A stretch of DNA of 64,000 nt from Bifidobacterium sp. GTDB taxonomy: Bacteria > Actinomycetota > Actinomycetes > Actinomycetales > Bifidobacteriaceae. The stretch's first letter is position 1, and each line of letters begins with the position of its first letter. Positions 10,401 through 62,282 of this stretch are shown here, in pieces. A program made the translations under genes and the position numbers. Below the pieces are notes generated by a model. That model made no database searches and was not told the DNA's origin. It saw only the letters and a program-made list of their open reading frames with translations. The stretch spans positions 1 to 64,000 of the forward strand of contig JAGGHK010000006.1 in the NCBI GenBank assembly GCA_024104275.1. Direction: 5' to 3'.

Positions 10401-11648
10401 AGAATGACGGATAACGTAACCGATTTTTTGCGACGATTCTTTATTATTTTGTCTTGTAGATTTACGTTGCGATAACGCCTTGTTATCTTTTTCGCCATCC
10501 TCATCATCCGCGCGAACGACTTCAAGACCCAGCTCAGGGTCACCATCGACGACGCGAACAGGAATGGCCGAAGCGAAATTGCCATGAAGCGGCACGTAAT
10601 CTAGCGTGACATCGGCATCGACGAACAAATCGAGCAATTCCGCAGTCTCGTCGTCGGAAAGCCGCATTTCCTGGGCTTCCGCCTTGCTCTGGTAAAACTC
10701 ATAGTCGCCGGAAACACTTTTGCGGATTTCGATGGCACGGCCGAGAATCGCCAGAATCGAACGCGACCGTTCGTCGAACGAATCACGGGAATGCACGAAT
10801 GCCAGCTTTTTGCCGTAGGTGACGAATTCGCGGCGCTGCACCGCCTCGACCAACGCGTGCACGTCCTTGACCACGTAGGAAATTCCCTTCGACGGCACCG
10901 CAATATGCAGACGCAAATACCAGTCGCGAGCGGAATTCTCCAACATCGGACGCAGCACGACCGAGCCGATGGGCATGTGCCGACTCAGCGCCACACCGCT
11001 GCCGATGTCGCCGGAAGCGCGGCTGCTGACCTCTTTGAGCAAATCGAGCTGACGGTTCTTGGCCTGCTCCTCAAGCGCCGAATCCTCTTGTTGCATGAAC
11101 GAGCGCAACACCCGCGACGTGCGGCGGACTACCTTGCGCTGGCGAGCGCCGAGCCCCGCACCGCCCCGCGAGCCGGAGGCAGCGACACCGTTGCCCAGTT
11201 CCTCGAACTTCTGCGGCGTGTCGTTGTATTGCATAATCAGCGCAATGACATGCTTGCAGATCGCACCAAAACGTCCGAACGCCGGGCAGGTGCAGTCCGA
11301 ATCGATGATCTCACCATGGTTCTCGTCGATGCGGGCGCTCACGGCGTAATCGTCCGCGAATTCGTCGGCCGGCTCTACCGATGCGGCCAGCAACGTGCCG
11401 TCCTCACCGGGAGTACAGGTCAGAGAGTGCATGCGTCCGCTGGAAATGACCTCGTAGGCGCGGTAAAAGGCCTTGCCACCTCGCTGCCTCAGCACCTTTT
11501 CGGGGACGGCCGGCTCGGCAGCACCAAACGTCACGCCGCCATCAGGGTCGACAATCCCACCGAACGTATCGTTGTCGGAACCTGATCCAAGCCCGAATCC
11601 GCCCGAGCTCCCGGTTCTCGACCCGTACACCGACGCATGCCAATCCAA
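7428..11648 (-). CDS. SWIM zinc-finger SNF2-family ATPase/helicase
   Basis: This 1406-residue protein is a putative Swi2/Snf2-type DNA translocase. An N-terminal SWIM zinc finger is visible (CTCPAFG then CKHV, about 128-143). A long middle region includes an Asn/Ser/Gly/Asp-rich low-complexity stretch (about 500-570). The motor follows: LADEMGLGKT (Walker A), LDEAQYIKNH (motif II, DEAQ), LTGTPIENRLSELWS (motif III), and in the second lobe ATDRAHRIGQ (motif VI). Large SWIM-SNF2 proteins are widespread in Actinobacteria; their role, probably in transcription recycling or repair, is poorly known. Start is TTG with AAGGGG upstream. The 3' end is convergent with the HTH gene. Confidence 0.93.
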   Translation of the reverse strand: MDWHASVYGSRTGSSGGFGLGSGSDNDTFGGIVDPDGGVTFGAAEPAVPEKVLRQRGGKAFYRAYEVISSGRMHSLTCTPGEDGTLLAASVEPADEFADDYAVSARIDENHGEIIDSDCTCPAFGRFGAICKHVIALIMQYNDTPQKFEELGNGVAASGSRGGAGLGARQRKVVRRTSRVLRSFMQQEDSALEEQAKNRQLDLLKEVSSRASGDIGSGVALSRHMPIGSVVLRPMLENSARDWYLRLHIAVPSKGISYVVKDVHALVEAVQRREFVTYGKKLAFVHSRDSFDERSRSILAILGRAIEIRKSVSGDYEFYQSKAEAQEMRLSDDETAELLDLFVDADVTLDYVPLHGNFASAIPVRVVDGDPELGLEVVRADDEDGEKDNKALSQRKSTRQNNKESSQKIGYVIRHSLNIQKFIIGRGSSFVVVESPDTSRAFGLDTPEIHRCSSAMTTNRNLLGVLCASDERGDLYLSSDDIEEFSRTVLPALDPVPADGEDDGIGDSGNSEDAGNAGNDSDNNESGNNSVSTETDPDNLSQNDNGKTASDGSSQNGTGQTSGTKSAVTGDLTPATSRGTSHHGIAVKLPPELIKMRRVPCHIETYLDRDKSGITCDVQARYGDERFHVFSGIGPNEPVARDRETERLAVEAVRQYFPMPDGPIARIKEDNDKAIYKLLNEGLPVLRGLGEVFSTPSFDGLTSSPHPVFKIGLSIKSGLVEISPIADEIDPSEVPALLNSYRKRRKFHRLRNGAFVNMADVDTSKLDEVSSDLGLKPVDLDLGAVSVPAYEAYYLDNEAEDEDKSDEFRSYLNDLRVIDPKTYKVPKSLAHVLRPYQIEGFRWLNAVSDKGFGGILADEMGLGKTVQMLSYLVSRRDEQRQIGPNLIVCPASLVYNWAAECAKFAPELNVQVLAGSKAARRAMLKNTKAWYEGGKVNSISETADSKQNKNDGWQSADSPQLSDDEDTAQWVAPDVLITSYDLLRRDIDDYDGLECYCMTLDEAQYIKNHATKSAHAVRTVTACHRFALTGTPIENRLSELWSIFDFLMPGMLGAYKHFRDRFEMPILSGDENAQSKLQAFVGPFILRRLKSQVLKDLPDKIENVITVQLEGEQRRLYAALEQQLRATLNKQRDIEYKTGKIQILAQLTRLRQACCDPRLLFSNVGSNVVKKDAHVWGAPSREVERADDEPIDELSETADASANAIVGDGGLSGSNASDTSKVGTSANKSRKVTSAKLDAIEELVSSCQDAGRKMLIFSQFTSFLDLIAERLRKNGVAYNVITGATPKRKRLELVDRFNADDTPVFLISLKAGNTGLNLTGACVVVHADPWWNAAAQEQATDRAHRIGQTQDVNVYQIVAKDTIEERILKMQQSKSDLAHRFVDNAGTGTSAGISNLTKDDLLQLLG

Positions 11649-36375: not shown

Positions 36376-37347
36376 ATGCCAAATCAGCAGGAACTCCTGT
36401 TGCGTGATGATCTAAAGCGCGTGGTGCAAACGATGCACTCTGAAGAGGATAACTTGACCCCCTATCGTGAGGATTACCGCCACCTGCTCGACAATTATGG
36501 CAAGATGATTCGCGCATCGCTGGTTCTGCTTTTCTCCTACGTCGTCCAAGACGGCAAGCCCTATCACGTCGACGACAAGATCATCACCGGTGCCGCGGCG
36601 ATCGAAATGCTGCATTTGGCCACGTTGGTGCACGACGACGTGCTCGACAATGCCTCGGTCCGCCGCAATGAACCCACTATCCAGACCATCCATGGCAACA
36701 AGGCCGCGATTTATCTGGGCGACCTCATTCTTTCGCGTTATATGGAAATCATCGCGACCATCGCGCCGGACACGGCTTTCATCGCCGAACAGGCCCATAC
36801 CGTCAACGAGATTGTTTCCGGGGATCTGCTGCAGGAAGCCGCGAGACACAACATCGGCACTTCCAAGGAATACTATTTGCGTGCCATCACCGGCAAGACC
36901 GCTGCACTCTTCCGTCTGGCTGCGATCACCGGCATCAAGCTCACCACCGACTCTCCTTCACCCTCAGCGCTCGAGCAGGCGGCAAAATTCGGAGAGCATT
37001 TGGGCATCGCCTTCCAGATTCTGGACGATGTAGAGGATTTCGACGTCGCCCACGACACCGGCAAGCCAAAACTTGAGGACATCCGCGACGGCATCTATAC
37101 CTTGCCCGTCATTCTGGCGATCGAGGCCGACCCGTCGTTTACAGACATCGTCAAGCTTGACGACCCGTTGAAAGTCCTCGACTACTTCAAGGCACACCCA
37201 CAGTTCATCAACAACGCCAAGGATGAAGCACGCGAACATCTGGAAGCGGCCAAGGCCGTGATTGCCGACAGCAAATACCCGGCGATCAGGCCGGGCACGG
37301 TCAAAGCTCTGGTTGACGTCATCGACAAATTCATCAAAACGCTCTGA
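36376..37347 (+). CDS. Polyprenyl diphosphate synthase (long-chain trans type)
   Basis: This 323-residue enzyme condenses isopentenyl diphosphate onto allylic diphosphates. The first Asp-rich motif is DDVLD in LVHDDVLDNASVRR (about 91-104) and the second is DDVED in QILDDVEDFD. KMIRASL replaces the usual GKRIRP region. The residues before the first motif are small or aliphatic (MLHLATLV), which suggests a long product, as in quinone side-chain synthases; the exact length cannot be read. It is convergent with cydC, so its likely role is to supply the tail for MenA (59199). ATG behind AGAGG at 10 nt. Confidence 0.88.
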   Translation: MPNQQELLLRDDLKRVVQTMHSEEDNLTPYREDYRHLLDNYGKMIRASLVLLFSYVVQDGKPYHVDDKIITGAAAIEMLHLATLVHDDVLDNASVRRNEPTIQTIHGNKAAIYLGDLILSRYMEIIATIAPDTAFIAEQAHTVNEIVSGDLLQEAARHNIGTSKEYYLRAITGKTAALFRLAAITGIKLTTDSPSPSALEQAAKFGEHLGIAFQILDDVEDFDVAHDTGKPKLEDIRDGIYTLPVILAIEADPSFTDIVKLDDPLKVLDYFKAHPQFINNAKDEAREHLEAAKAVIADSKYPAIRPGTVKALVDVIDKFIKTL

Positions 37348-37445
37348 CGTTTTCAAGCTTCGACAGTTCTGCACATTGACATTTCCATGCTTTGGTTCTA
37401 GCCGTTTTCAAGCATTATCGATAGCAAATCAGTGATAGCAAAATA

Positions 37446-37487
37446 GTTGAGGGCCCGATGCTCAGGCTGAGTCATCCGGCCCTCAAC
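37446..37487. terminator. Bidirectional terminator between the polyprenyl synthase and cydC
   Basis: GTTGAGGGCC / GGCCCTCAAC arms enclose a second small stem (GATG.CTCA / TGAG.CATC). It is placed between the two convergent genes. Confidence 0.7.
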
Positions 37488-37522
37488 TCATATTGTTGTG
37501 GTTTCGGTTTCGATGCCGTCTT

Positions 37523-39451
37523 TCACCGCGTGGTTTCCAGCTCACCGACATCGAGGCGGTAGAGCTCGCGGAAACGCTCGTTGGTGCGGTAAAGCTCCGT
37601 GGGAGCGCCCTGCATGGCAATCTTGCCATTGTCGAGGAAGATGACCTTGTCGGACTGCTCGAGCCCTTGCAGATGATGAGTGACCCAGAGCATCGTGCGG
37701 TCGCCGGCAGCGGAGAAGATCATCGACATCAGCTCTCGTTCGGTGATCGGGTCAAGGCCGATGGTCGGCTCGTCCAGCAAAATCACTGGGGTGTCTTTGA
37801 GCACGATACGGGCCAAGGCGATGCGCTGACGTTGGCCGCCGGAGAAGCGCTGCCCCGCCTCGTCGACGGAGGTGTCGATGCCATCGGGAAGCACACGAAC
37901 GGCATCATCAAGCTGAACGGCCTTGAGTGCATCCCACACATCCTCGTCGGTGGCATCAGGAGCACCCAGACGCACATTTTCGGCGATGGTGGAATTGAAG
38001 AGGAACGCCTGCTGGTTCAAGTAACCGAAGATGCGGGCACGTTCGTCCTGCAGAGCCGCCACAGGAATCCCATTGATGGTGATTGCACCCTTTTGCGGCA
38101 CCAGATCGCCGAGCAGCAGCTGGAGAATCGTGGTCTTGCCTTCACCGCTGGGGCCAAGCAGCGCGACCTTCTCGCCGGCCTTGATATGCAGGGTGAAATC
38201 GTCGAGCAACGTCGGCTGTCCGGGTCCGTAGGCAAAAGTGACATGGTCAAAATCGATGGATTCAATCGGACCATCAAGACTCTGCTGCGCCACCGGCTCC
38301 TGCTGACGCGACTCGACGCGGTTGGTCAAGTCATTCAAATGCTCGAGCGAATCGCTATAGAGCGGTATCTCGGCGGTGGCCTGGGCAACATTGATGAAAC
38401 AGTCAACCAACGGGAAAACGGCAAGCACGATGGAAGCGGACCAGTCGGCTATGGACTTGGAACCCGTCATGGTCAAGCCTGCTCCGACCATCAGGCCGAT
38501 GGCGATGACGCCGAAGACGACCTGGATGGCGAAATTGCGCCAGCGTTCAAAAGTTTTCTGCTGGTCCTTGCTCTCCTGGATACGCCGGTATTCATCGGCT
38601 CCGATGGAGATGAAATCCTTGTCTTTGTGGGTGATGACCCAATCGCTCAGGCCGAGGTAGCTTTCGGTGACCTTGGTGTATTCCTGCGCCTGCTGCTGCT
38701 TTTCGAGCGCGAAGTGGCCGGTCGAGAAGCTCAGCGAGACCAGCGGAATGAGAATCAGGACCAGTGCGAGCATCAGGAAGAGCAGCAACGAGGAAGTCCA
38801 CGAGAAGACACCCATGGCGATGGTGACGATAATCCAGAGGATATAGGCCACCACGGTGGGGAAAATGGTGCGCAGGTAGAAGTTCTCGAGGTGGTCGAGA
38901 TCGTCCGCCAAAAGGCTCAATACGCTGCCCGTACGCTCATGCTCGTTGAGGAACGCGGCGTCCTTGGAGAGGGTGCGATAAAGCTGCACGCGCAGCTTTG
39001 AGATGACGTGAAGCACCCAGTCGTGGCTTTTGAGCTGTTCGACGTATTTGAACACAGGGCGGCCGATGCCGAAGGCGCGCGTGAGTACGATGGGCACATA
39101 GACCATGAGGATGTTATAGGGCATGCGCGCCGAACGGTTGATAAGGTAGCCAGCGGTGAACATGAGGGCGGCGGCGCACACGAAAGTCATCGAGCCGAGG
39201 AAGAAGATCAGGGCGAGCGTGCGCTTGTTTTCCTTCAGATACGGCCAGAACCAGTGGTCGTTGTCCCAGATTTTGAGGTAGTCGCGCAGTCTTGGCTTTT
39301 CCTGCCTAGAATCCGAAGACGAACCGGCGACATTCTCCCCCACGCCGTTGCCGGCCTTGCCGTTTTTCGTCTCACCATGCATGTCTTTTGGGGCTTTCAC
39401 ACTGCTCAAGACTTTTGCGTTTTCAGTGTCGTTCGTACTTGTTGAGTCCAT
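37523..39451 (-). CDS. cydC: Cytochrome bd biogenesis ABC exporter subunit CydC
   Basis: This 642-residue half-transporter has six membrane helices then an ATPase domain. With CydD it forms the heterodimer needed to assemble cytochrome bd (thiol export/heme handling). Walker A GPSGEGKTT, signature FSGGQRQRIALAR, Walker B VILLDEPTIGLD and the switch His in LWVTHH are intact. A 60-residue polar N-terminal tail precedes the first helix. ATG 39451 has AAGG five nt upstream and lies 40 nt past the cydD stop. C versus D is assigned by order only. Confidence 0.88.
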   Translation of the reverse strand: MDSTSTNDTENAKVLSSVKAPKDMHGETKNGKAGNGVGENVAGSSSDSRQEKPRLRDYLKIWDNDHWFWPYLKENKRTLALIFFLGSMTFVCAAALMFTAGYLINRSARMPYNILMVYVPIVLTRAFGIGRPVFKYVEQLKSHDWVLHVISKLRVQLYRTLSKDAAFLNEHERTGSVLSLLADDLDHLENFYLRTIFPTVVAYILWIIVTIAMGVFSWTSSLLLFLMLALVLILIPLVSLSFSTGHFALEKQQQAQEYTKVTESYLGLSDWVITHKDKDFISIGADEYRRIQESKDQQKTFERWRNFAIQVVFGVIAIGLMVGAGLTMTGSKSIADWSASIVLAVFPLVDCFINVAQATAEIPLYSDSLEHLNDLTNRVESRQQEPVAQQSLDGPIESIDFDHVTFAYGPGQPTLLDDFTLHIKAGEKVALLGPSGEGKTTILQLLLGDLVPQKGAITINGIPVAALQDERARIFGYLNQQAFLFNSTIAENVRLGAPDATDEDVWDALKAVQLDDAVRVLPDGIDTSVDEAGQRFSGGQRQRIALARIVLKDTPVILLDEPTIGLDPITERELMSMIFSAAGDRTMLWVTHHLQGLEQSDKVIFLDNGKIAMQGAPTELYRTNERFRELYRLDVGELETTR

Positions 39452-39491
39452 GGTCGCCTTGGATGGGTTCGAGTGCAGATTATTCTGTGAT

Positions 39492-41504
39492 TCAGTCGAG
39501 GTACTGGTCAATCTGGTTGCCTCCCATCTCGCCGATGAGGTGGTCCAGCGGGCCACCTGCGCCAATCAGTTCCTTCGGAGTTCCGGATTCGACCACCCGG
39601 CCTTGGTCGAGCACGAGCACTTGGTCGACGTTCGCCAGCCAGTGCAGCCGGTGCGTGGCGAGGATGACCAGATGGTTCTCTATGATCGGCAGCAGCGTCT
39701 TTTTGAGGTCGTATTCGGTTTCGATATCGAGGTGTGCGGTGGGTTCGTCGAAGAGCAGTACCTCGCGGGATTTGTCAAGCAGGACTCGGGCAAGCGCGAT
39801 ACGCTGGGCCTGGCCGCCGCTGATGCCGCGGTTGCCCTCCCCTATCAGGGTGTCAAGTCCGTCGGCAAGCTCGGCGAGCCATTCGTCAAGACCAGCCTCG
39901 TGGGCGGCCGCGTTGACGTCTTCATCGCTCGCGTCCGTAACGTAGAAACGGATGTTGTCGGCGATGGAACCGCTGAAGATGTATGGGGTCTGGGGAATAT
40001 AGCTGATATGGCACTGCCACGCGGCAACGTTGAAATTCTCGAGTTTGTGGCCGTCGAGCTCAATGGAACCGGCGTGCGGAATGTTGAATCCGGCAAGCAG
40101 GTTGACCAATGTCGACTTGCCGGCGCCGGATTTGCCAATGACGGCGATTTTGCCGTAACCCTTGAACGTCATCGACACATGGTGCAGCGCATTAGGTTGT
40201 GTTGGGTCTTCAATCGCGACAGTCTTGCTATCGCTATCGTCGGTTGCGTTGTCGACGGCTTCATTATCGGCTTTCTGACCCTTGTCAGCACCTTTCTTAC
40301 CGTGTCCACGACGACGTTTGGATTTGGAGCTGTTGGAGTCGTTTGAATCGTCGTCGGACTTCTTTTCGTCCTCCCCCTCGCGCTGCTGCTCCACCGCGTT
40401 CATGGCCACGTTGTGGCTGGCGACGGCCTTCGTATCGTCCGCATCCTGTGGCTTGCTGCCGGCGGGATAGGCGAAGTCTACATCCTCGAGCTTGAGCTCG
40501 CTGTCGTCCTTCCAGCCATCCCACTTGGTTTCAGTGTCCTGCGGGGTCTCGGGGCTGTCGATGAAACTCATGATGTCGTGCAAAGCGTTCTTGCCGTCAA
40601 GCGTGGCATGGTAGTTGTCGCCGAACTGGCGAACCGGCAGGAAATAGTCAGGAGCCATGATCAACGCGAACATAGCCGGGAAGAGCGGCATGGTGCCGTT
40701 GACCAGGCGCAATCCGAGGAACACGGCCATAATGGCGATGCCAAGTGTCGTGAACCAGTCGAGGGCGAAGGTCGAGGTCATGGCCACCTTGAGCACGTCG
40801 ATGGTGCGTTTGCGGAAGCGTTCGCTGACGCTGTAAATCTCGCCTTCGTATTCCTTGTCGACGCCGAGCATCTTCAAAGTCGGCAGACCCAAGATGCTGT
40901 CGACGAATTTGGTATTGAGAATATTGAATTGCGCATATTGCTTGTTGGAACGGTCGCGGGCGGCGAGTCCCAGAATGACCATAAAGAAGATAATCAACGG
41001 GTACATCAAGAGCAGAATCAACCCGCTGACCCAGTCCTGCCACCAGACGGCAATGAGAATAACCAGAGAAATGATCATCATGTCGGTCATTTTCGGCAGG
41101 AGGATCTCGATATAGCTTTTGACCTGGTCAAGGCCGTCGATCAGCATCGTCACCGTCGAACCGGTGCCGCGGGAGGCCAGTGCCTGCGGGCCCAAACGGA
41201 AGATTTTTTCCTGCAGTTGGGGACGAATCTGTCCGGCGACATATTTGCCGTATTTGCTGGAAATACGCTGTTTGGCGACGTCGCAGAGATGACGCATCGC
41301 ATAGAAAGCAAGGAATTCAATGGCTGGAGAGACCAACGTCGAAACCGAGTGAAGTTTCCATATCTCCACCAGCCCTCGGGCCAAGCCGTGGGCCTGTCCG
41401 ACGATGCACAGCGCCTGCAAAAGCGAAAGCAGGGCAAGAAGCCCCATGCGCTGCCGCACCCCGTCGAACCTGAATAGACTTTTATCGATCACGACCAGTC
41501 CCAA
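39492..41504 (-). CDS. cydD: Cytochrome bd biogenesis ABC exporter subunit CydD, with charged insertion in the ATPase domain
   Basis: This 670-residue protein is the partner of CydC. Six membrane helices lie between about 20 and 300. The ATPase domain starts at DVDFAYP (about 341-347), is interrupted by roughly 80 hydrophilic residues (349-430) with runs of Asp/Ser/Lys/Arg, and resumes with Walker A GKSGAGKST (457-465), signature ISGGQAQRIALAR and Walker B LLFDEPTAHLD. The interruption lies between the first strand and Walker A, an uncommon place. Start TTG 41504; GTG 41492 is possible. It follows cydB after a 142-nt gap with a large hairpin. Confidence 0.88.
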   Translation of the reverse strand: MGLVVIDKSLFRFDGVRQRMGLLALLSLLQALCIVGQAHGLARGLVEIWKLHSVSTLVSPAIEFLAFYAMRHLCDVAKQRISSKYGKYVAGQIRPQLQEKIFRLGPQALASRGTGSTVTMLIDGLDQVKSYIEILLPKMTDMMIISLVILIAVWWQDWVSGLILLLMYPLIIFFMVILGLAARDRSNKQYAQFNILNTKFVDSILGLPTLKMLGVDKEYEGEIYSVSERFRKRTIDVLKVAMTSTFALDWFTTLGIAIMAVFLGLRLVNGTMPLFPAMFALIMAPDYFLPVRQFGDNYHATLDGKNALHDIMSFIDSPETPQDTETKWDGWKDDSELKLEDVDFAYPAGSKPQDADDTKAVASHNVAMNAVEQQREGEDEKKSDDDSNDSNSSKSKRRRGHGKKGADKGQKADNEAVDNATDDSDSKTVAIEDPTQPNALHHVSMTFKGYGKIAVIGKSGAGKSTLVNLLAGFNIPHAGSIELDGHKLENFNVAAWQCHISYIPQTPYIFSGSIADNIRFYVTDASDEDVNAAAHEAGLDEWLAELADGLDTLIGEGNRGISGGQAQRIALARVLLDKSREVLLFDEPTAHLDIETEYDLKKTLLPIIENHLVILATHRLHWLANVDQVLVLDQGRVVESGTPKELIGAGGPLDHLIGEMGGNQIDQYLD

Positions 41505-41536
41505 CTACTAACGAATGTTTTTTAAAGACAAAGAAA

Positions 41537-41605
41537 GCCCGATGTTCCCCGACGTACCGATGAATATTATTGGTCATTCATCGGTACGCCACGAGAACAT
41601 CGGGC
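41537..41605. terminator. Large inverted repeat between cydB and cydD
   Basis: GCCCGATGTTC and CGTACCGATGAAT in the left arm pair with their exact complements on the right, around a 5/6-nt internal loop and a 10-nt terminal loop. It may end ndh-cydAB transcripts partly and so lower cydDC, or protect the upstream mRNA. There is no long T run. Confidence 0.6.
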
Positions 41606-41645
41606 ATTGATTTAACTTTCCATTGAAAGGACGAGCATCAGTTCG

Positions 41646-42716
41646 TCACTGTGCCAAAGCCGCCTTGATGGCTTCCGGCGTATTGTCCGTGAGCAAACGC
41701 TTCCTCTGGATGAAGTAGGACCAGATGAAGTAGATTAGGACGATCGGCAGGAGGCAGCAGAGCACGATGGTCATGATTTCCAGCGTGTACTGCGAAGACG
41801 AAGCCGCAGACACGGCCAGGCTCTTGGACGGATCGGTCGCAATCATCACGTTCGGGAAAAGCCCGTTGAAGATGAAGGCAATGATGCCGGCAAGGGTGAC
41901 GCCCGAGGAAATGAAGGCGAACCCGCCACGCTTCTTGTACGCGGAAAGGTGACCACAAATCGTCGCAGCCAGAATGACCACGGTGATCAGCAGTGTCGAC
42001 TTGGTGCGACGCTGATAGAAATCAGTGAAGATGAACGCCAAGATGACGAAGACCACAAGTGCCGGGTAGGCGATCCAATAAACCTTCTTGGAGGTGTTGA
42101 GCATCCTCTCGGAGGTCTTCTCATCAAGCTTGAGGCTCAGGAAGTGCAGTCCGTGCAGGAAGCTGAAGAACACCACAGCCACGCCGCCGACAATGGAGAG
42201 CCAGTTGACCACGTCGAAGAACCCGGCGTGAACGTTGCCCTGCGCATCCATCGGGACGCCCTGGATGACGCTGGTGAGCATCATGCCCAGGCCGAACGGT
42301 GCGATGACGCTGCCTGCGAAGTTGGCCCACTGCCAGACGTTGCGCTCACGATCGGTGACCGCATGTGCGGCGAACTCGAAGGAGACACCACGCAGGATAA
42401 GGCCGACCAACACGATGAAGAGCAGTAGGTAGTAACCAGAGAAGAGGCTTGCGTACCACAGCGGGAAGGAGGCGAACATGGCGCCGCCGCCGGTGATAAG
42501 CCAGACCTCGTTGCCGTCCCAGTGAGGGCCGACCGCGCGCATGTAGAGCGCACGTTCGTCGCCGTTGTGGGCGAGGACTCGAGTGGCCATGCCGACACCG
42601 AAATCGATGCCGTCAAGGAAGAGGAAGATGGCGAATACCAGCGCAATCACAAAGAACCACAGCAATTGCAGGAAATTGTTGCCATCGATCAATGGCTTAG
42701 CGAGAAACTCGGTCAT
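41646..42716 (-). CDS. cydB: Cytochrome bd ubiquinol/menaquinol oxidase subunit II
   Basis: This 356-residue membrane subunit has about nine hydrophobic segments and the CydB signature near the N terminus (LFLDGIDFGVGMATRVLA, then VGPHWDGNEVWLITGGGAMFASFP). It stabilises the two b/d heme pocket of subunit I. Its ATG overlaps the cydA stop as ATGA, the normal coupling. The C terminus ends in a short cytoplasmic tail. It is full length compared with about 340-380 residues in relatives. Confidence 0.95.
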   Translation of the reverse strand: MTEFLAKPLIDGNNFLQLLWFFVIALVFAIFLFLDGIDFGVGMATRVLAHNGDERALYMRAVGPHWDGNEVWLITGGGAMFASFPLWYASLFSGYYLLLFIVLVGLILRGVSFEFAAHAVTDRERNVWQWANFAGSVIAPFGLGMMLTSVIQGVPMDAQGNVHAGFFDVVNWLSIVGGVAVVFFSFLHGLHFLSLKLDEKTSERMLNTSKKVYWIAYPALVVFVILAFIFTDFYQRRTKSTLLITVVILAATICGHLSAYKKRGGFAFISSGVTLAGIIAFIFNGLFPNVMIATDPSKSLAVSAASSSQYTLEIMTIVLCCLLPIVLIYFIWSYFIQRKRLLTDNTPEAIKAALAQ

Positions 42717-44179
42717 GCCAACGCCACCTTTCTGTTAGCTGCGTGGGCACCGACATGAGAACCTTCGGTAGCCGGCTGCGTAGCTCCTTCCGGATCCGGC
42801 TCCGGCCCCTGATGGAGTACACGACGCGAGTAGAAGATCATCACGCCGCCCATGAGGCAGAAGAGCAGGAAGTACACGATATTGGTGAACAGCAGGCTCG
42901 GGACGGTAGCCGTCGGAGAGACTGCGTCAGCGATGGTCTGCAGGCCATAGACAATCCACGGATAACGGCCGAGTTCGGTGATGAGCCAGCCACCGGTGGT
43001 GCCGATGAACGGCAGGTAGGTGCAAACGCCCAAGACCCAGAGCTTCCAGCGGCTGTCCGCCAGGGTGTTCTTGGACTTGCGGGTGAACCACAGCGTGCAG
43101 ATAGCGAGAATCAACACCGCGAAACCGACGGCGGCCATGAAGCGGAAGCTCCAGAACAGCACGTTGGTGGGCACATAGTAATCCGAGATCTCAGGATGGG
43201 CAATGCCGTTCTTGATGATCTTTCCACGCTCGCCGAGGAACTGCTGGTTCAAGGTGTTCATGCCTTGAATGGTTCCGCCATAAAGCTTGTGGAACGCAAG
43301 CAGGGAGAGCATGCCGGGAATCTCTAGGCCAGCGGACTTGTGCGCGCCTTCGTTGATGAGGCCGACGACCATCCATGGAGCCGGGCTCTTGAGATCCTCG
43401 TAAATGCCTTCAGTGGCGGCGAACTTCATCGGCTGGTCCTTGATGATCTCAAGGGTCTGCAAGTCGCCGGTGATGATGACAAGGATGGAACCGATCAACG
43501 CGATAATCGCGCCAACACGAATCGAACGGGTGAAGAAGGCCCTATCGGCATTCTTGTGCATGAAGCCGAAGGCGCTCATGCCGACAACGACCATGCCGCC
43601 AAGCATCAATGCGCCGGTGGCGACGTGCGGGAATTCGCGCCAAAGCTGGGGATTGCCGATAACCGCGGCGAAATTCGTCATTTCGGCGTGGCCGGTCTTC
43701 TTGTTGATGCCGTAACCCACAGGGTTCTGCATGAAGCTGTTGGCCGCGAGAATCCAAATGGCGGAGACTGTGGAGCCAAGCCATGTCAGCCAGATGAAGA
43801 CAACGTGGACACCCGGCTTGAACCGGTTCCAAGTGAACATCCAGACGCCAATGAAGGTGGACTCCATGAAGAACGCCAGCAGGGCCTCAATGGCCAGCGG
43901 CGCCCCGAAGATGTCGCCCATGAAACGCGAGTAGTTCGACCAGTTCATACCGAATTGGAATTCCTGAATGATGCCGGTCACTACGCCAACAGCGAAGCTC
44001 AGAAGGAAAATCTTCCCCCAGAACTGTGCCATGCGTTTGTAAATGTATTTCCTCTTCACTACGTATAACGTTTCCATTACGGCAACAGTGAATGCCAAAC
44101 CAATAGATAACGGTACGAAGAAGAAGTGGAAGACCGTCGTCATCGCGAACTGGAATCGCGATAACCCTAAAACAGTCAT
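42713..44179 (-). CDS. cydA: Cytochrome bd quinol oxidase subunit I
   Basis: This 488-residue subunit oxidises quinol and reduces O2 to water at the di-heme site. From ATG 44179 the heme ligands fall at His18 (VFHFFFVP), His185 (PHVATGALML) and a Met downstream; the quinol-site residues Lys252 and Glu257 lie in QPMKFAATEG, in the same register as the E. coli enzyme. GWLITELGRYPW is conserved. The Q-loop is short, as in Gram-positive enzymes. ATG 44179 has AAAGGA six nt upstream; an upstream start at 44209 is less likely. It lies 46 nt after ndh and is coupled to cydB. Confidence 0.96.
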   Translation of the reverse strand: MTVLGLSRFQFAMTTVFHFFFVPLSIGLAFTVAVMETLYVVKRKYIYKRMAQFWGKIFLLSFAVGVVTGIIQEFQFGMNWSNYSRFMGDIFGAPLAIEALLAFFMESTFIGVWMFTWNRFKPGVHVVFIWLTWLGSTVSAIWILAANSFMQNPVGYGINKKTGHAEMTNFAAVIGNPQLWREFPHVATGALMLGGMVVVGMSAFGFMHKNADRAFFTRSIRVGAIIALIGSILVIITGDLQTLEIIKDQPMKFAATEGIYEDLKSPAPWMVVGLINEGAHKSAGLEIPGMLSLLAFHKLYGGTIQGMNTLNQQFLGERGKIIKNGIAHPEISDYYVPTNVLFWSFRFMAAVGFAVLILAICTLWFTRKSKNTLADSRWKLWVLGVCTYLPFIGTTGGWLITELGRYPWIVYGLQTIADAVSPTATVPSLLFTNIVYFLLFCLMGGVMIFYSRRVLHQGPEPDPEGATQPATEGSHVGAHAANRKVALA

Positions 44180-44225
44180 TTTAATCCTTTCTTCCCAACT
44201 ATTCCCCACCTATAAAAGCGAGGAA

Positions 44226-45401
44226 TCAATCATCTTCAAGCATAGTACGAATATTGGTCAACTCCAAAGTGGAACGGTCTGCGATGAACTTTTTGGCCAC
44301 GCTGGCAACCCACCCCTTGAGGTTCCAATGGCCAAACATGTCAATCGATGCAATTCCCGCTTTCGGTCCCAACGAGCAAAGTGTGCCGAGGGACTTGTAA
44401 ACGAACTTCTTCGGGTCCTTGCCTTGAATACGCGCGACGATGTTGTCCGCTGCAGTATCGGCTTCTGCGATGGAAATCTGCGCGGTGGTCGGATAGAGAC
44501 GACCGTTGTCCGGGTTCGGGACGGCGGAGACGTCACCCACCAGGAACTCCTCGGGATGGCCTTTGATCGACAGATCGTCTTGGACGACCACGCGGTTGCG
44601 CTTCTGGTCGTATCCCGAATTCGCGATGACGTGGCTGCCGTGCACGCCGGTCGTCCAAATGATGGTATTGGCCGGGAATGCGGTGTCGTTGCTCATCACT
44701 GCGTTCGGCTTGACCTCGGTGATCGGGGTGCCTGCATGGAAGGTGACGCCGTGGTCTTCGAGGTACTTGACGCCCCACTCAGCAAGCTTGGGGTCGAACA
44801 TCGGCAGGATCTTCGGAGTCGCCTCAATGCAGTCAATCTTTACCTTGTCAAGCGGGAAGTCATCTTCCTTTGCCAGTTCGGGCAGACGATAGACCAGTTC
44901 GCCCAAGTACTCGATGGAGGTGAAGCCGGCCCCGCAGACGACAATATGAAGGTCGTTCTCGTCGTGACTGGTCTTGTAGTCCTTGAGCGTGTCTTCAAGA
45001 TGCTTGCGCGCGGCGACGGCGGTATCGATATCGATCAGCGGCCAGCCGTTCTCGTCGGCACCTTTGATGCCAAAGGTCTCGGACTCGAAGCCCAAGGCGT
45101 TGACCAGATAATCGTAGGAAAGCGGTTCGCCGTTCTTCAGTTCGACCTTCCTGGCATCCTGATCGACCTTGGTGACTTCATCGATGACTACCTTGACCTT
45201 CGGATCGACGGCTTTGCGCACGTCGAACGTGATCTGATTGGGTTCCTTTGTGCCTGCGGCGACCTCGTGCAGTTCGGTGGACTGGTAATGGTATGGATTC
45301 TTGTTGACCAGGATGATGTCGGCATCAACATTGGCCTTCGCAAGTTGCTTCGCGGCACGCATGCCGCCATAACCTGCGCCAAGAATAACGATCGTAGTCA
45401 T
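44226..45401 (-). CDS. ndh: Type II NADH:quinone oxidoreductase (NDH-2)
   Basis: This 391-residue flavoprotein passes electrons from NADH to quinone without pumping protons. The FAD-binding site is VILGAGYGGMRAAKQLA (about 4-20) and the NADH site is IVVCGAGFTSIEYLGEL (about 160-176). VGDVSAVPNPDNGR and PTTAQISIAEADTAA are typical of the family, and the C terminus has an amphipathic helix for membrane docking. ATG 45401 follows GGGGGTAAA; the upstream start at 45446 adds 15 unrelated residues. It opens the ndh-cydABDC block behind candidate Rex and cre-like sites. Confidence 0.92.
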   Translation of the reverse strand: MTTIVILGAGYGGMRAAKQLAKANVDADIILVNKNPYHYQSTELHEVAAGTKEPNQITFDVRKAVDPKVKVVIDEVTKVDQDARKVELKNGEPLSYDYLVNALGFESETFGIKGADENGWPLIDIDTAVAARKHLEDTLKDYKTSHDENDLHIVVCGAGFTSIEYLGELVYRLPELAKEDDFPLDKVKIDCIEATPKILPMFDPKLAEWGVKYLEDHGVTFHAGTPITEVKPNAVMSNDTAFPANTIIWTTGVHGSHVIANSGYDQKRNRVVVQDDLSIKGHPEEFLVGDVSAVPNPDNGRLYPTTAQISIAEADTAADNIVARIQGKDPKKFVYKSLGTLCSLGPKAGIASIDMFGHWNLKGWVASVAKKFIADRSTLELTNIRTMLEDD

Positions 45402-45428
45402 TTTACCCCCTTCGTTGGGAATTGTATA

Positions 45429-45460
45429 AGAATGAATACTATTCATTTGATATTCATTCT
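45429..45460. promoter_or_regulatory. Inverted repeat just upstream of ndh
   Basis: AGAATGAATA (45429-45438) and TATTCATTCT (45451-45460) are perfect complements with 12 nt between. A further ATTCATT half-site in between lets the element form two overlapping palindromes. It lies 28-60 nt before the start codon, so it could be an operator or a leader hairpin. Confidence 0.45.
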
Positions 45461-45556
45461 CGTTTGTTGCTTACGATATTAAAATATCTATTCGCAATAA
45501 GAAAAACGATTTAATTTGCATAATCAGATACATTTCTGCACGATTCGACTACTTAA

Positions 45557-45572
45557 TATGACATATTTCACA
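45557..45572. promoter_or_regulatory. Candidate Rex operator upstream of ndh-cydABDC
   Basis: TATGACATATTTCACA matches the Rex consensus TGTGAANNNNTTCACA at 10 of 12 defined positions, with the right half perfect. Rex is a redox-sensing repressor that releases DNA at high NADH and controls cydABCD and ndh in several Gram-positive bacteria. The site is about 155 nt upstream of the ndh start. Confidence 0.4.
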
Positions 45573-45598
45573 AAATATACCGTCACTGAAAAATAATT

Positions 45599-58324: not shown

Positions 58325-59071
58325 TTACTTCTTGGCCTGGCCTTGGGCAGCCACGGCAGCAGCGCCGGCGGCGGCGGCTTCGGGGTCGAGATACTCGCCA
58401 CGAGGCTTGATCGGTTTCATGTTCTCGTCGAGCTCGTAAACCAGCGGAATGGCCGTCGGAATGTTGACCTTGGAGATTTCCTCTTCGCTCAAGCCGTCAA
58501 GCATCTTGACGATGGCGCGCAGGGAGTTGCCGTGCGCGGCGATCAGGACGGTCTTGCCGCTCTTCAACTCAGGGACGATCTCGGATTCCCAGTACGGGGT
58601 GACGCGGGTGACGACGTTGGCCAAGGCCTCGGTCTCGGGGACCGGATCGCCGGCGTAACGCGGGTCGCTGTTCTGCGAGAACTTGTCGCTCGGATCGATT
58701 TCCGGCGGCGGGGTGCCATAGGAACGACGCCAGATCATGAACTTCTCGTCGCCGTACCTCTCGCGGATCTCGGACTTGTTCTTGCCTTGCAGGGCGCCGT
58801 AATGACGCTCGTTAAGCCTCCAGCTGCGCTTGACCGGAATCCAGAGGCGATCGGCCTCATCCAGTGCGTAGTTGGCGGTGTTGATCGCGCGACGCAGCAA
58901 CGAAGTGAAGACGATGTCGGGAAGGACGTTCTTCTCCTTGAGGAGCTGGCCACCGTGCTTGGCTTCCTCGACACCCTGCTCGGTGAGCGGGACATCGACC
59001 CAGCCGGTGAATTGGTTTGTTTTATTCCATGCGCTCTGGCCGTGCCGGAGCAATACTAATCTATAAGGCAT
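58325..59071 (-). CDS. gpmA: 2,3-bisphosphoglycerate-dependent phosphoglycerate mutase
   Basis: This 248-residue glycolytic enzyme interconverts 3- and 2-phosphoglycerate. [12 protein letters not shown] carries the phospho-His (about His10), [32 protein letters not shown] and the second catalytic His in [11 protein letters not shown] are present. The C-terminal Ala/Gly-rich tail is longer than usual. The codon bias is strong, as for a highly expressed gene. No good ribosome binding site precedes the ATG, so it may be leaderless. Confidence 0.95.
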
Positions 59072-59198: not shown

Positions 59199-60236
59199 TT
59201 AGAGCGTCAGAGCGATCTCCACGACGATGAAGACGATCGAGAAGAGCAAGACCGTCATGCTCGCCATCGGCAGGGCCTTGACGAAGTTGCCGCCGTTGAT
59301 GCTTTTGACAAGACCCGTTGCCGCCTTGATGCAGACCAGCGCGACGAGAATCGCAATAACCGCCCAGATAAGGCCGGCCACGCTGAAGTGACGGAACAAC
59401 ATCACCAAAGGAACGAAAGCGCCGACAACCGTGACGACCAGCGGAACCAGATAGGTGACGAACAGCACGGTCTGGGCGTTCTTCTGTCCGAGGCGCACAC
59501 CGAGGGTCATCTTGCCGCTGATTTTGTCTTCATCGACATCACGGAGGTTGTTGACCATCAGGATGGCGCAGGAGAAGAGACCGCAGAGCACCGCGCCCAG
59601 GATACCTTCGGCGTTGACACGGCCGGTGAGCACGTATTGAGTGCCGAGCACCGCCACCAAGCCGAAGAAGATGAAGACGCCGACTTCTCCGAAACCGGCG
59701 TAGCCGTAAGGATGCTTGCCGCCGACATAGAACCAGCCTGCAAGCAGGCAGACGATGCCAAGCGCAATAAGCCACCAGTGGCCGGTGATGATAGTGAGGG
59801 CGAGACCTGCGACGCAGGCGATGAAGGCGTTGACACCGGCGGCGGCGAGCACCTGACCCGGCTTGACACGTCCGGAAACGGTCAAACGCTGCGGTTTGGC
59901 GGTCTTGATTTCCGCGTCACCTCGGCCTTCATCGGTGCCGCGGATGCCATCCGAATAGTCATTGGCGAAATTGGCGGCGATCTGGATGAACAGCGCTACC
60001 ACCACGCAGAGCAGCGCAAGCAAAGCGAACTTTCCCCATGGCATGCTGGCTGCTGGGGCGCTCAAGCCGCTGGGCTCAGCCACACAAGTTTGAAGTTCTT
60101 TTGAGGCGGAAGCGCAACCTGCCGGTTGCAGTTTCAAAAGACGATATCCTGCAGCGACACCGACCAATACAGATGCAATGGATGCCGGTAACGTTTTCGG
60201 ACGCAGCCCGTTGACCCACAAATCCAAGTTCTTCAA
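59199..60236 (-). CDS. menA: 1,4-dihydroxy-2-naphthoate polyprenyltransferase (MenA, UbiA family)
   Basis: This 345-residue membrane enzyme attaches a polyprenyl chain to DHNA. It has eight to nine hydrophobic helices. The two Asp-rich loops are ANFANDYSDGIRGTD (about 85-99) and NNLRDVDEDKISGKMTLGVRLG (about 228-249), in which the DxxxD pairs bind Mg2+-diphosphate. A 40-residue insertion with three Cys follows the first helix (about 38-75), not typical. No other men gene lies nearby. Start TTG 60236 behind GGGA. It probably uses the product of the polyprenyl synthase at 36376. Confidence 0.92.
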   Translation of the reverse strand: MKNLDLWVNGLRPKTLPASIASVLVGVAAGYRLLKLQPAGCASASKELQTCVAEPSGLSAPAASMPWGKFALLALLCVVVALFIQIAANFANDYSDGIRGTDEGRGDAEIKTAKPQRLTVSGRVKPGQVLAAAGVNAFIACVAGLALTIITGHWWLIALGIVCLLAGWFYVGGKHPYGYAGFGEVGVFIFFGLVAVLGTQYVLTGRVNAEGILGAVLCGLFSCAILMVNNLRDVDEDKISGKMTLGVRLGQKNAQTVLFVTYLVPLVVTVVGAFVPLVMLFRHFSVAGLIWAVIAILVALVCIKAATGLVKSINGGNFVKALPMASMTVLLFSIVFIVVEIALTL

Positions 60237-60522: not shown

Positions 60523-62187
60523 CTAGTTCAGCGGCTTCACCAGCGGGAAGGTGATGGTCTCGCGGATGGTCGCGCCCGTGAGGGCAATGAGCAGACGGTC
60601 GATGCCCATGCCCATGCCTCCGGCCGGCGGCATGCCGACGCCCAGCGCCTCGAGGAAGTCCTCGTCGATGTCCATCGCCTCGACGTCGCCCGCGAGCGCG
60701 TCCTTGGCCTGGTCGACCAGGCGCTGACGCTGCACCACTGGGTCGTTGAGTTCGGAATAGCCGGTCGCCAGCTCGAAGCCGCGCACGTAGAGATCCCACT
60801 TCTCCACGACGCCCTTCTTGCTGCGGTGGGCCTTGACCAGCGGGCTGGTCTCGACCGGGAAGTCGCGCACGAAAGTCGGAACCTCGGCGCCCAGGCCGGC
60901 CTCGTAGAAGTGCTCCCAAAGGTGCTCGACCAGCTTGCCGTGATTCTCGACCTCGTCACGCTCCACGCCGAGCTTGTCGGCGATGGCGCCCAAGTGCTCC
61001 ACGGACGTTTCCGGCGTGATCTCCTCGCCGAGCGATTCGGAAAGCGACTCGTACATGGAAATCTGCTTCCATTCGCCGCCGAAGTCGTATTCGCTGCCGT
61101 CGAGCAGCGTCACCTTGGCGGAGCCGAACGCGTCGATGGCCGAGCGCTGGATGAGCTTTTTGGTCAACGCGGCGATGGTGTCGTAGTTGCCATAGGCCTG
61201 ATAAGCCTCGAGCATCGTGAACTCCGGGGCGTGCGTGCCGTCGACGCCCTCGTTGCGGAAGTCGCGGTTGATCTCGAAGACGCGCTCAATGCCACCGACC
61301 AGGCAGCGCTTGAGGAACAGTTCCGGGGCGATGCGCAGGTAGAGATCGATATCGAAGGCGTTCATATGAGTGATGAACGGACGTGCCGCCGCTCCCCCGT
61401 GCACCGTCTGCAGCATCGGGGTCTCGACCTCGAGGAAGTCGTCTTTGGCAAACGTATTACGAAGCGAACTGACGACCTTGGAACGCTTACGAACCATGTC
61501 ACGAATCTTCTCATCGGCGATCATGCCGATATACGGCTTGCGGGTGCGGGTGTCTTCCGTGAGCTCCTTGTGCAAAGCGGGCAGCGGCTGCAACGCCTTG
61601 GCGGCGATCTTCCACTCGCTGGCGAAAACGGAAAGCTCACCGGTCTTGGAGGCGATCACGCGTCCCTTCAAATAAAGGTGGTCGCCGAGATCGACAAACT
61701 GCTTGAACGCTTTGAGCGAATCCGCGCCGATCTCCTTCTTGGAGATCATGCCCTGGATCTTGGTGCCGTCACCTGCGGCAAGCTGCACAAAACACAGGCC
61801 GCCGCCGTTGCGCAGGAAAAGCACACGTCCGGCGATGGAGACGACATCCTGCGTCTCTTCACCCGCGTTGAGCTTGCCATCATATTTGGCGCGAACCTGC
61901 GGAATCGTGTCGTTGACCTCGACCACGACCGGGTAAGGCGCGACGCCGTCTTTGAGCATCTGGGCACGCTTGGCCACGCGCATCTGCACCTGCTCGGGCT
62001 GACCTTCCGGGCCGAATTCCTTGTTGGTCGGGTCGATGGACTCGTCGAACGACTTGCCTTCATTGATATTGGCCGCGATGGCCTCGTCCTGCTTAAGGCG
62101 CAATTCCGCACGCTCGACAGTGGACATTACCGGGGTCTGCGCCTCTTCTTCATTCCGGTTTTCGCCGGTTTCATTTGTTTCGTTCAT
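60523..62187 (-). CDS. lysS: Lysyl-tRNA synthetase, class II
   Basis: This 554-residue enzyme charges tRNA-Lys. An OB-fold anticodon domain (about 80-190, VVSIAGRVLFLRNGGGLCF) precedes the class II core: motif 1 around DFLEVETPML, motif 2 FEINRDFRNEGVDGTHAPEFTMLE, motif 3 GMGMGIDRL at the end. The first 60 residues are acidic and disordered. ATG 62187 has AGGA only two nt away; an upstream frame at 62280 lacks family similarity. Strong codon bias. Confidence 0.95.
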   Translation of the reverse strand: MNETNETGENRNEEEAQTPVMSTVERAELRLKQDEAIAANINEGKSFDESIDPTNKEFGPEGQPEQVQMRVAKRAQMLKDGVAPYPVVVEVNDTIPQVRAKYDGKLNAGEETQDVVSIAGRVLFLRNGGGLCFVQLAAGDGTKIQGMISKKEIGADSLKAFKQFVDLGDHLYLKGRVIASKTGELSVFASEWKIAAKALQPLPALHKELTEDTRTRKPYIGMIADEKIRDMVRKRSKVVSSLRNTFAKDDFLEVETPMLQTVHGGAAARPFITHMNAFDIDLYLRIAPELFLKRCLVGGIERVFEINRDFRNEGVDGTHAPEFTMLEAYQAYGNYDTIAALTKKLIQRSAIDAFGSAKVTLLDGSEYDFGGEWKQISMYESLSESLGEEITPETSVEHLGAIADKLGVERDEVENHGKLVEHLWEHFYEAGLGAEVPTFVRDFPVETSPLVKAHRSKKGVVEKWDLYVRGFELATGYSELNDPVVQRQRLVDQAKDALAGDVEAMDIDEDFLEALGVGMPPAGGMGMGIDRLLIALTGATIRETITFPLVKPLN

Positions 62188-62282
62188 AATCCTCGAGTGT
62201 ACCGAGCAGCCGATACACGCTATGATTTTGCGGTTCAATGACCAATAAACATGTAGGTAAATATGCATGCCGACACGCATAC

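Follow-up and report, generated by a model that had tools for sequence, protein, structure and literature searches.

A cytochrome bd respiratory module in a Bifidobacterium, apparently acquired from lactic acid bacteria and probably dependent on outside heme and quinone precursor

Respiratory genes in the window

This report concerns a cluster of respiratory genes in a draft Bifidobacterium genome (GCA_024104275.1; 2.16 Mb, 19 contigs, 94.85% complete). The window, by which we mean the whole 64,000-nucleotide stretch analysed (G000:C16:1-64000, contig JAGGHK010000006.1), carries predicted genes for the NADH dehydrogenase NDH-2, cytochrome bd and its assembly transporter, and a polyprenyl diphosphate synthase, as follows.

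36376..37347, plus strand: long-chain-type all-trans polyprenyl diphosphate synthase gene, convergent with cydC (PF00348, 176.5 bits)
37523..39565, minus strand: cydC, half of the CydDC transporter for bd assembly (TIGR02868, 472.5 bits, cut-off 329)
39492..41504, minus strand: cydD, second half of CydDC (TIGR02857, 538.6 bits, cut-off 435)
41646..42716, minus strand: cydB, cytochrome bd subunit II (TIGR00203, 270.8 bits, cut-off 117.3; PF02322, 303.8 bits)
42713..44209, minus strand: cydA, cytochrome bd subunit I (PF01654, 504.8 bits, full length)
44226..45446, minus strand: NDH-2 gene (PF07992, 135.3 bits; best solved match 5na1)

Read along the minus strand from 45446 to 37523, the order is NDH-2, cydA, cydB, cydD and cydC. 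The seven open reading frames named in the initial annotation (the cyd set, NDH-2, the synthase and menA, described below) were all recovered at their positions and matched their family models; for NDH-2 the gene was right and its outer boundary was not, the frame really reaching 45446 and the proposed boundary at 45401 being an internal ATG. The TIGR02868 match in the cydC frame begins at residue 105, so the true cydC start probably lies downstream. In alignments of CydA with the solved structures of three bd oxidases (7nkz, 7d5i and 7ose), the N-terminal heme His and the b558 His are kept, as are the Lys and Glu of the motif QPMKFAATEG. These include the residues that the initial annotation had listed as conserved, its numbering (His18) starting at M11 of the longest frame. 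Homology of the NDH-2 protein to the solved NDH-2 chains 5na1 and 4nwz spans its whole length, the best being 5na1 (NADH dehydrogenase-like protein SAOUHSC_00878, E 8.6e-82); none of the NCBIfam models matched it at a curated cut-off, and its name rests on homology. The predicted cytochrome bd gene set is therefore present, with CydA and its key residues, CydB and the CydDC transporter, and the whole genome encodes one CydA. The product of the synthase would be the quinone tail, with a chain length that we infer. A Rex-like operator before NDH-2 was considered and set aside: the window holds one 3-mismatch match (45556-45573) against 2.29 expected by chance, and across 24 regions upstream of NDH-2 the best score, 11 of 14, was reached in 4.

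The bifidobacterium of the window is a relative of insect-gut species. A CydA scan of 84,980 species genomes gave 158 confirmed matches, and the best 80 of these, which were taken as loci, comprise 21 Bifidobacterium and 59 Lactobacillales loci. Among these best 80 of 158, the nearest is Bifidobacterium sp. ESL0784 (95% identity), followed by ESL0682, ESL0763, B. commune, B. bohemicum and B. bombi. The last three species are included among insect isolates (PMC5540593).

The module as a unit and its origin

Across 112 Bifidobacterium genomes, our own counted in, NDH-2, the cyd genes and the synthase form one unit; the B. asteroides cluster seemingly lies outside this survey, judging by gene order. 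cydA was found in 25 genomes, and the remaining 87 gave no CydA match. NDH-2 relatives of at least 59% identity and synthase relatives of at least 51% identity each occur in 23 genomes, and these are the same 23, so that 23 of the 25 genomes with cydA and none of the 87 without it carry both. The two cydA-bearing genomes that lack these relatives (G095 and G096) are split into about 360 and 340 contigs. Genomes without cydA gave weak NDH-2 matches (24-28% identity, in 15 of the 87) and distant synthase matches (roughly 27-39%). As to variation among the loci, two tandem NDH-2 genes precede cydA in ten relatives (for example L002 7209-9975) and one does so in the window (44226-45446). A further NDH-2 paralogue of 46-52% identity occurs in eight genomes, the match in our own covering residues 154-378 only (C13:115850-116542). 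On contig C61 of genome G002 (L234 4481-7549), menA adjoins the synthase gene, and cydA lies on the same contig about 13 kb off.

The initial annotation had counted menA as a member of the module. It lies apart from the cyd cluster, between two genes that are given for context.

58325..59071, minus strand: phosphoglycerate-mutase-type phosphatase gene, conserved menA neighbour (PF00300)
59199..60236, minus strand: menA, 1,4-dihydroxy-2-naphthoate (DHNA) prenyltransferase (TIGR00751, 199.6 bits, cut-off 102)
60523..62280, minus strand: class II tRNA synthetase gene, conserved menA neighbour, which we take to be lysS (PF00152, 259.4 bits)

MenA is over the cut-off in 112 of 112 genomes, including the 87 without a CydA match; menA is a genus-wide gene and no part of the cyd module. 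Its surroundings, read in 42 stretches from 41 genomes, mostly resemble those of the window: menA lies near a phosphoglycerate-mutase-type gene in 32, and in 28 of these a lysS relative is also present. In eight others it ends an operon for an energy-coupling factor (ECF) transporter, and two stretches of G002 fit neither pattern. The claim that its Asp motifs are intact held up across an alignment to which 71 of 72 loci contributed a row, plus the window (some genomes appear twice): these motifs are kept in 71 or 72 of the 72 rows, in genomes with and without cydA. The assignment as MenA is based on an equivalog model over its cut-off and on both Asp-rich motifs, and DHNA is the predicted substrate.

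The architecture of the module is lactobacillal. The same order, NDH2-cydA-B-D-C with a convergent synthase, occurs in Schleiferilactobacillus (L014, L016), Oenococcus kitaharae (L050) and Apilactobacillus (L078, L079, L081), and the convergent position of the synthase is common to most lactobacillal cyd loci. The eight loci of the B. asteroides cluster (L017-L024) are rearranged to NDH2-cydB-D-C-A, with cydA now behind cydC; CydB of the window shares 73% identity with the Schleiferilactobacillus protein and 69-72% with those of the B. asteroides cluster. A first CydA tree comprised the window, all 21 Bifidobacterium, 26 of the 59 Lactobacillales and 30 actinobacterial loci, the last being the top scorers of a draw across the class (118 genomes, 86 with a match). 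The bifidobacteria formed one clade (100/99) nested in Lactobacillales, sister to Schleiferilactobacillus (100/97) and next to O. kitaharae (100/98). Because the actinobacterial rows had been picked by score, we added 15 others, including 8 from the order to which the window belongs, for a second tree (20 bifidobacterial, 22 lactobacillal and 29 actinobacterial rows), which gave the same groups and in which bifidobacteria and actinobacteria as one clade were rejected (p 0.0126). As CydA is nested in Lactobacillales and the actinobacterial clade is rejected, we argue for transfer from lactic acid bacteria, and the module looks acquired from them rather than ancestral as published. The initial annotation had not anticipated this origin, which emerged from the CydA trees and the gene order, and we found no report, among titles and abstract openings of open-licence papers, of a lactobacillal origin for bifidobacterial cyd genes.

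The published view holds that respiration is ancestral to Bifidobacterium, was inherited vertically and was lost in mammal-associated species (PMC3447821, PMC4449606). A single bifidobacterial CydA clade fits one old gain followed by losses, and PMC4449606 argues for ancestry from a guanine-plus-cytosine (GC) content of the module like that of the genome. We nevertheless regard vertical inheritance as improbable, given the position of CydA within Lactobacillales, the rejected clade with actinobacteria, the lactobacillal gene order and a best 80 of 158 CydA matches made up entirely of Bifidobacterium and Lactobacillales. Besides the GC content, several points weigh against transfer from lactic acid bacteria. 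Both trees carried flags for long rows, the first also for joined long branches and for five actinobacterial rows of odd composition; the Lactobacillales rows were drawn from a similarity-based scan; the phylogeny covers CydA only among the module genes; and the synthase shares no more than 42-43% identity with its Schleiferilactobacillus counterpart. Since the trees do not date the transfer, the module may also have been gained early and lost many times, and a gain in the genus ancestor followed by later losses is a middle position that the data allow.

Cofactor genes and the working of the chain

Ferrochelatase is over its cut-off in 8 of the 112 genomes, four of which have three tandem copies; none is over the cut-off in our own draft genome, where contig C11 holds the following.

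L155, about 8342-8548: ferrochelatase remnant
L155, about 9922-10881: hemQ with an internal stop

The remnant is the 5' part of one copy, the first 68 residues' worth, and about 2.8 kb is deleted relative to the near relative G082, inside the contig and between collinear flanks. This region is a decaying locus for heme salvage. In G082 hemQ is intact, with scores of 250.3 bits in NCBIfam (cut-off 253) and 165.6 in Pfam (cut-off 25). Two loci of relatives (L156 8416-11470 and L157 7045-10120) have three tandem ferrochelatase paralogues, 47-49% identical to one another within L156, beside an MFS transporter gene and hemQ. A HemY label for the gene between hemQ and hemH was dropped, its protein being the MFS transporter.

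For the quinone head group, the MenD model gave 70.4 bits in our genome, far under the cut-off of 244.2. MenD is over this cut-off in six of the 112 genomes, among them the near relatives G082 and G090 (about 421 bits), and the operon read in G082 is menF-menD-menH-menC. Four other genomes have MenD-like genes of 267-275 bits; the one read (G071, L144 2892-4676, 274 bits) sits among open reading frames that by eye resemble surface-sugar genes and was not counted as menaquinone synthesis, which this match to the model may not necessarily indicate. MenB is over its cut-off in 12 genomes, all with cydA and our own included (380.7 bits), and 10 of the 12, some of them single-contig assemblies, have no MenD over the cut-off. 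In three relatives read, menE and a gene for a MenI-like thioesterase lie beside menB; two MenE proteins of relatives were tested and both exceeded the MenE cut-off, and the MenI-like thioesterases fall below that of the MenI model. Our own genome has intact menB and MenI-like genes (about 93% identity to G082), and between collinear flanks 43 bases replace 2.84 kb that include menE. No MenE was found in this 76-kb contig or in the further stretches of our genome that were read, and the search for it covered these parts only. MenD, MenB and ferrochelatase are all kept in two close relatives. For menC (L142 6997-8121) and hemQ (L156 12889-13908) of G082, the best-scoring models are low-GC or general ones and not actinobacterial ones, which hints at a Bacillota source for some of the cofactor genes too.

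With respect to heme and the quinone head group, our strain looks like a recent auxotroph. The initial annotation had seen neither heme nor DHNA synthesis in the window and had supposed a shortage of both precursors. The annotated parts of the window agree with this, and the shortage extends genome-wide, as judged from the ferrochelatase remnant, the stop in hemQ, the lack of a MenD over its cut-off and the deletion of menE by menB; elsewhere, however, the genome does hold MenB and the MenI-like thioesterase. Its choice of DHNA as the missing step is not clearly supported: the state of MenD and menE would fit it, but MenB, the DHNA-CoA synthase, is still encoded.

Starting from the gene content, gene order, co-occurrence, CydA phylogeny and two deletions observed here, we consider it likely that a respiratory module derived from Lactobacillaceae operates on a genus-wide MenA and depends on outside heme and head-group precursor. 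How electrons flow, which substrates are imported and what role the chain plays in physiology are predictions from the genes. NDH-2, CydAB, CydDC and the long-chain-type synthase would have entered Bifidobacterium from Lactobacillaceae and been plugged onto a MenA that was already genus-wide. Electrons would pass from NADH through NDH-2 to demethylmenaquinol or menaquinol and on through cytochrome bd to O2, a wiring that the initial annotation had proposed and that stands as likely, the genes being intact. Such a chain would regenerate NAD+ and remove O2, and cytochrome bd would add some proton motive force. From its own genome the strain could complete neither heme nor the quinone head group: with ferrochelatase and menE deleted, hemQ interrupted by a stop and no MenD found, the chain should work only with outside heme and DHNA or another precursor. 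The need for both from outside is probable, and we infer that the precursor is DHNA.

Some facts count against this dependence. The incompleteness of the assembly leaves it possible that a missing gene lies elsewhere, and a strain that lives on DHNA alone would hardly be expected to retain MenB. The draft state of the genome, in 19 contigs, and the presence of MenD, MenB and ferrochelatase in two relatives could mean that the unsequenced 5% holds the men and heme genes and that the strain makes its own cofactors; we judge this very unlikely, because menE and the ferrochelatases are gone from within contigs whose flanking sequences are collinear, hemQ is broken by an internal stop, and ten of the 12 MenB genomes, some of them assembled in a single contig, have no MenD over the cut-off. 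It is also unlikely, if less strikingly so, that MenB and the MenI-like protein are in use, with MenE encoded elsewhere and DHNA made from imported o-succinylbenzoate. The intact state of both genes would suit such use, as would the ten MenB genomes without MenD over the cut-off, in two of which, among those read, menE is kept; against it, menE is deleted beside menB in our genome and did not turn up in the stretches read. In L. plantarum, Ndh2 and enzymes of the MenA and prenyl-synthase type that form demethylmenaquinone have been tied to extracellular electron transfer, for which exogenous DHNA is needed (PMC10746273). That NDH-2, the synthase and MenA likewise serve electron transfer to minerals here, with cytochrome bd secondary, seems highly improbable, since NDH-2 and the synthase track cydA in the genus and sit in the cyd cluster.

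Genus-wide MenA and VKOR, and what the module means

A candidate importer for a head-group precursor is found in relatives with small genomes. An ECF S-component with weak similarity to TrpP (26.1 and 33.5 bits against a cut-off of 27.2) occurs in 12 of the 112 genomes, in 17 copies; our own genome is not among them in this search. All 12 genomes are of 1.5-1.8 Mb, a size reminiscent of Gardnerella. In the eight S-component loci read, the order is in every case S, (S), EcfA, EcfT, MenA.

L212 2744-7931 (also L230, L231, L246 and L250-L253): ECF-menA operon with one or two TrpP-like S-components

This arrangement makes the operon a candidate for the import of a quinone head-group precursor in the small-genome lineage. 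In mainstream species, an ECF transporter beside menA was sought and none was present in the 16 gaps read. For L. plantarum, the route of quinone uptake is described as still to be identified (PMC10746273).

VKOR (PF07884), an enzyme that forms disulfides and depends on quinone, is over its cut-off in 112 of 112 Bifidobacterium genomes and in 3 of 14 controls, and SdhB in 112 of 112 and 9 of 14, respectively. Our own VKOR carries CDVNSVLSC and CPWC, that is, the loop Cys pair and the CXXC motif, and the same cysteines are present in five further loci. At both annotated SdhA-SdhB loci (L209 6333-10642 and L210 4808-8478), the next gene is O-methyltransferase-like and no SdhC-like gene is seen. 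Because MenA and VKOR are ubiquitous, no within-genus correlation is possible, and a link between them is drawn from Actinomyces oris, in which menaquinone is required for reoxidation of MdbA/VKOR (PMC5478893). That system likewise involves an actinobacterial VKOR needing a naphthoquinone and offers MenA a role without an oxidase; unlike A. oris, which makes its own menaquinone, Bifidobacterium provides a link of co-occurrence alone. We found no genus-wide MenA-VKOR link reported in titles or abstract openings of open-licence papers. It is possible, though we hold it to be rather doubtful, that all bifidobacteria run a non-respiratory quinone circuit, in which MenA would prenylate scavenged head groups of the DHNA type, VKOR would use the product to make disulfides in proteins that are exported, and reoxidation would fall to SdhAB or some other sink; in the insect lineages the lactobacillal respiratory module would have been plugged into this older circuit, and the ECF transporter of the menA operon would import the head group in small-genome relatives.

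Respiratory genes of insect bifidobacteria, such as cydABCD of B. asteroides PRL2011, have been published (PMC3447821, PMC4449606, PMC5540593), and the present module shares with them the genus, the genes and, judging by the relatives of its strain, the insect niche; menA is noted there as well. The gene order differs, NDH2-cydB-D-C-A in the B. asteroides cluster and NDH2-cydA-B-D-C in the window, and the published passages infer an ancestral origin and treat neither VKOR nor a genus-wide menA. The apparent lactobacillal origin of the module, the genus-wide presence of menA and VKOR outside it and the decay of host pathways go beyond those passages. The closest arrangement is that of Schleiferilactobacillus harbinensis (L014), with the same NDH2-cydA-B-D-C order and convergent synthase, and its genus is the sister group in the CydA tree; compared with the cyd loci of Lactobacillaceae, which belong to another phylum, bifidobacterial menA lies elsewhere, mostly near the phosphoglycerate-mutase-type gene and lysS. 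In function, the nearest likeness is to Streptococcus agalactiae, which has a two-enzyme chain of NDH-2 and cytochrome bd and requires outside heme and quinone (PMC6030563). Our chain, known from genes alone, would be similarly short and similarly dependent; unlike S. agalactiae, the genome of the window keeps MenB and a MenI-like gene, and its heme-gene remnant shows recent loss.

These observations bear on the physiology of the genus. O2 uptake has been seen in B. asteroides, and none in B. bohemicum or in three further insect species to which respiratory genes are attributed (PMC3447821). Genome G012, presumed to be B. bohemicum, has MenB over the cut-off and neither MenD nor ferrochelatase over theirs, so that its null O2 uptake agrees with a chain that lacks its cofactors; from the decay of the heme and quinone routes we predict that feeding hemin and DHNA could reverse it. 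An origin in lactic acid bacteria, if true, would reverse the story of ancestral respiration and mean that a whole respiratory chain crossed phyla. In addition, DHNA stimulates bifidobacteria (PMC5488095, PMC10746273), for which PMC5488095 also offers an alternative, in which 2-amino-3-carboxy-1,4-naphthoquinone (ACNQ) acts as redox mediator of NAD(P)H enzymes. A non-respiratory quinone circuit, if true, would explain the stimulation by propionibacterial DHNA, and the presence of menA and VKOR in every genome searched, 87 of them without cytochrome bd, would give it a concrete and testable reason.

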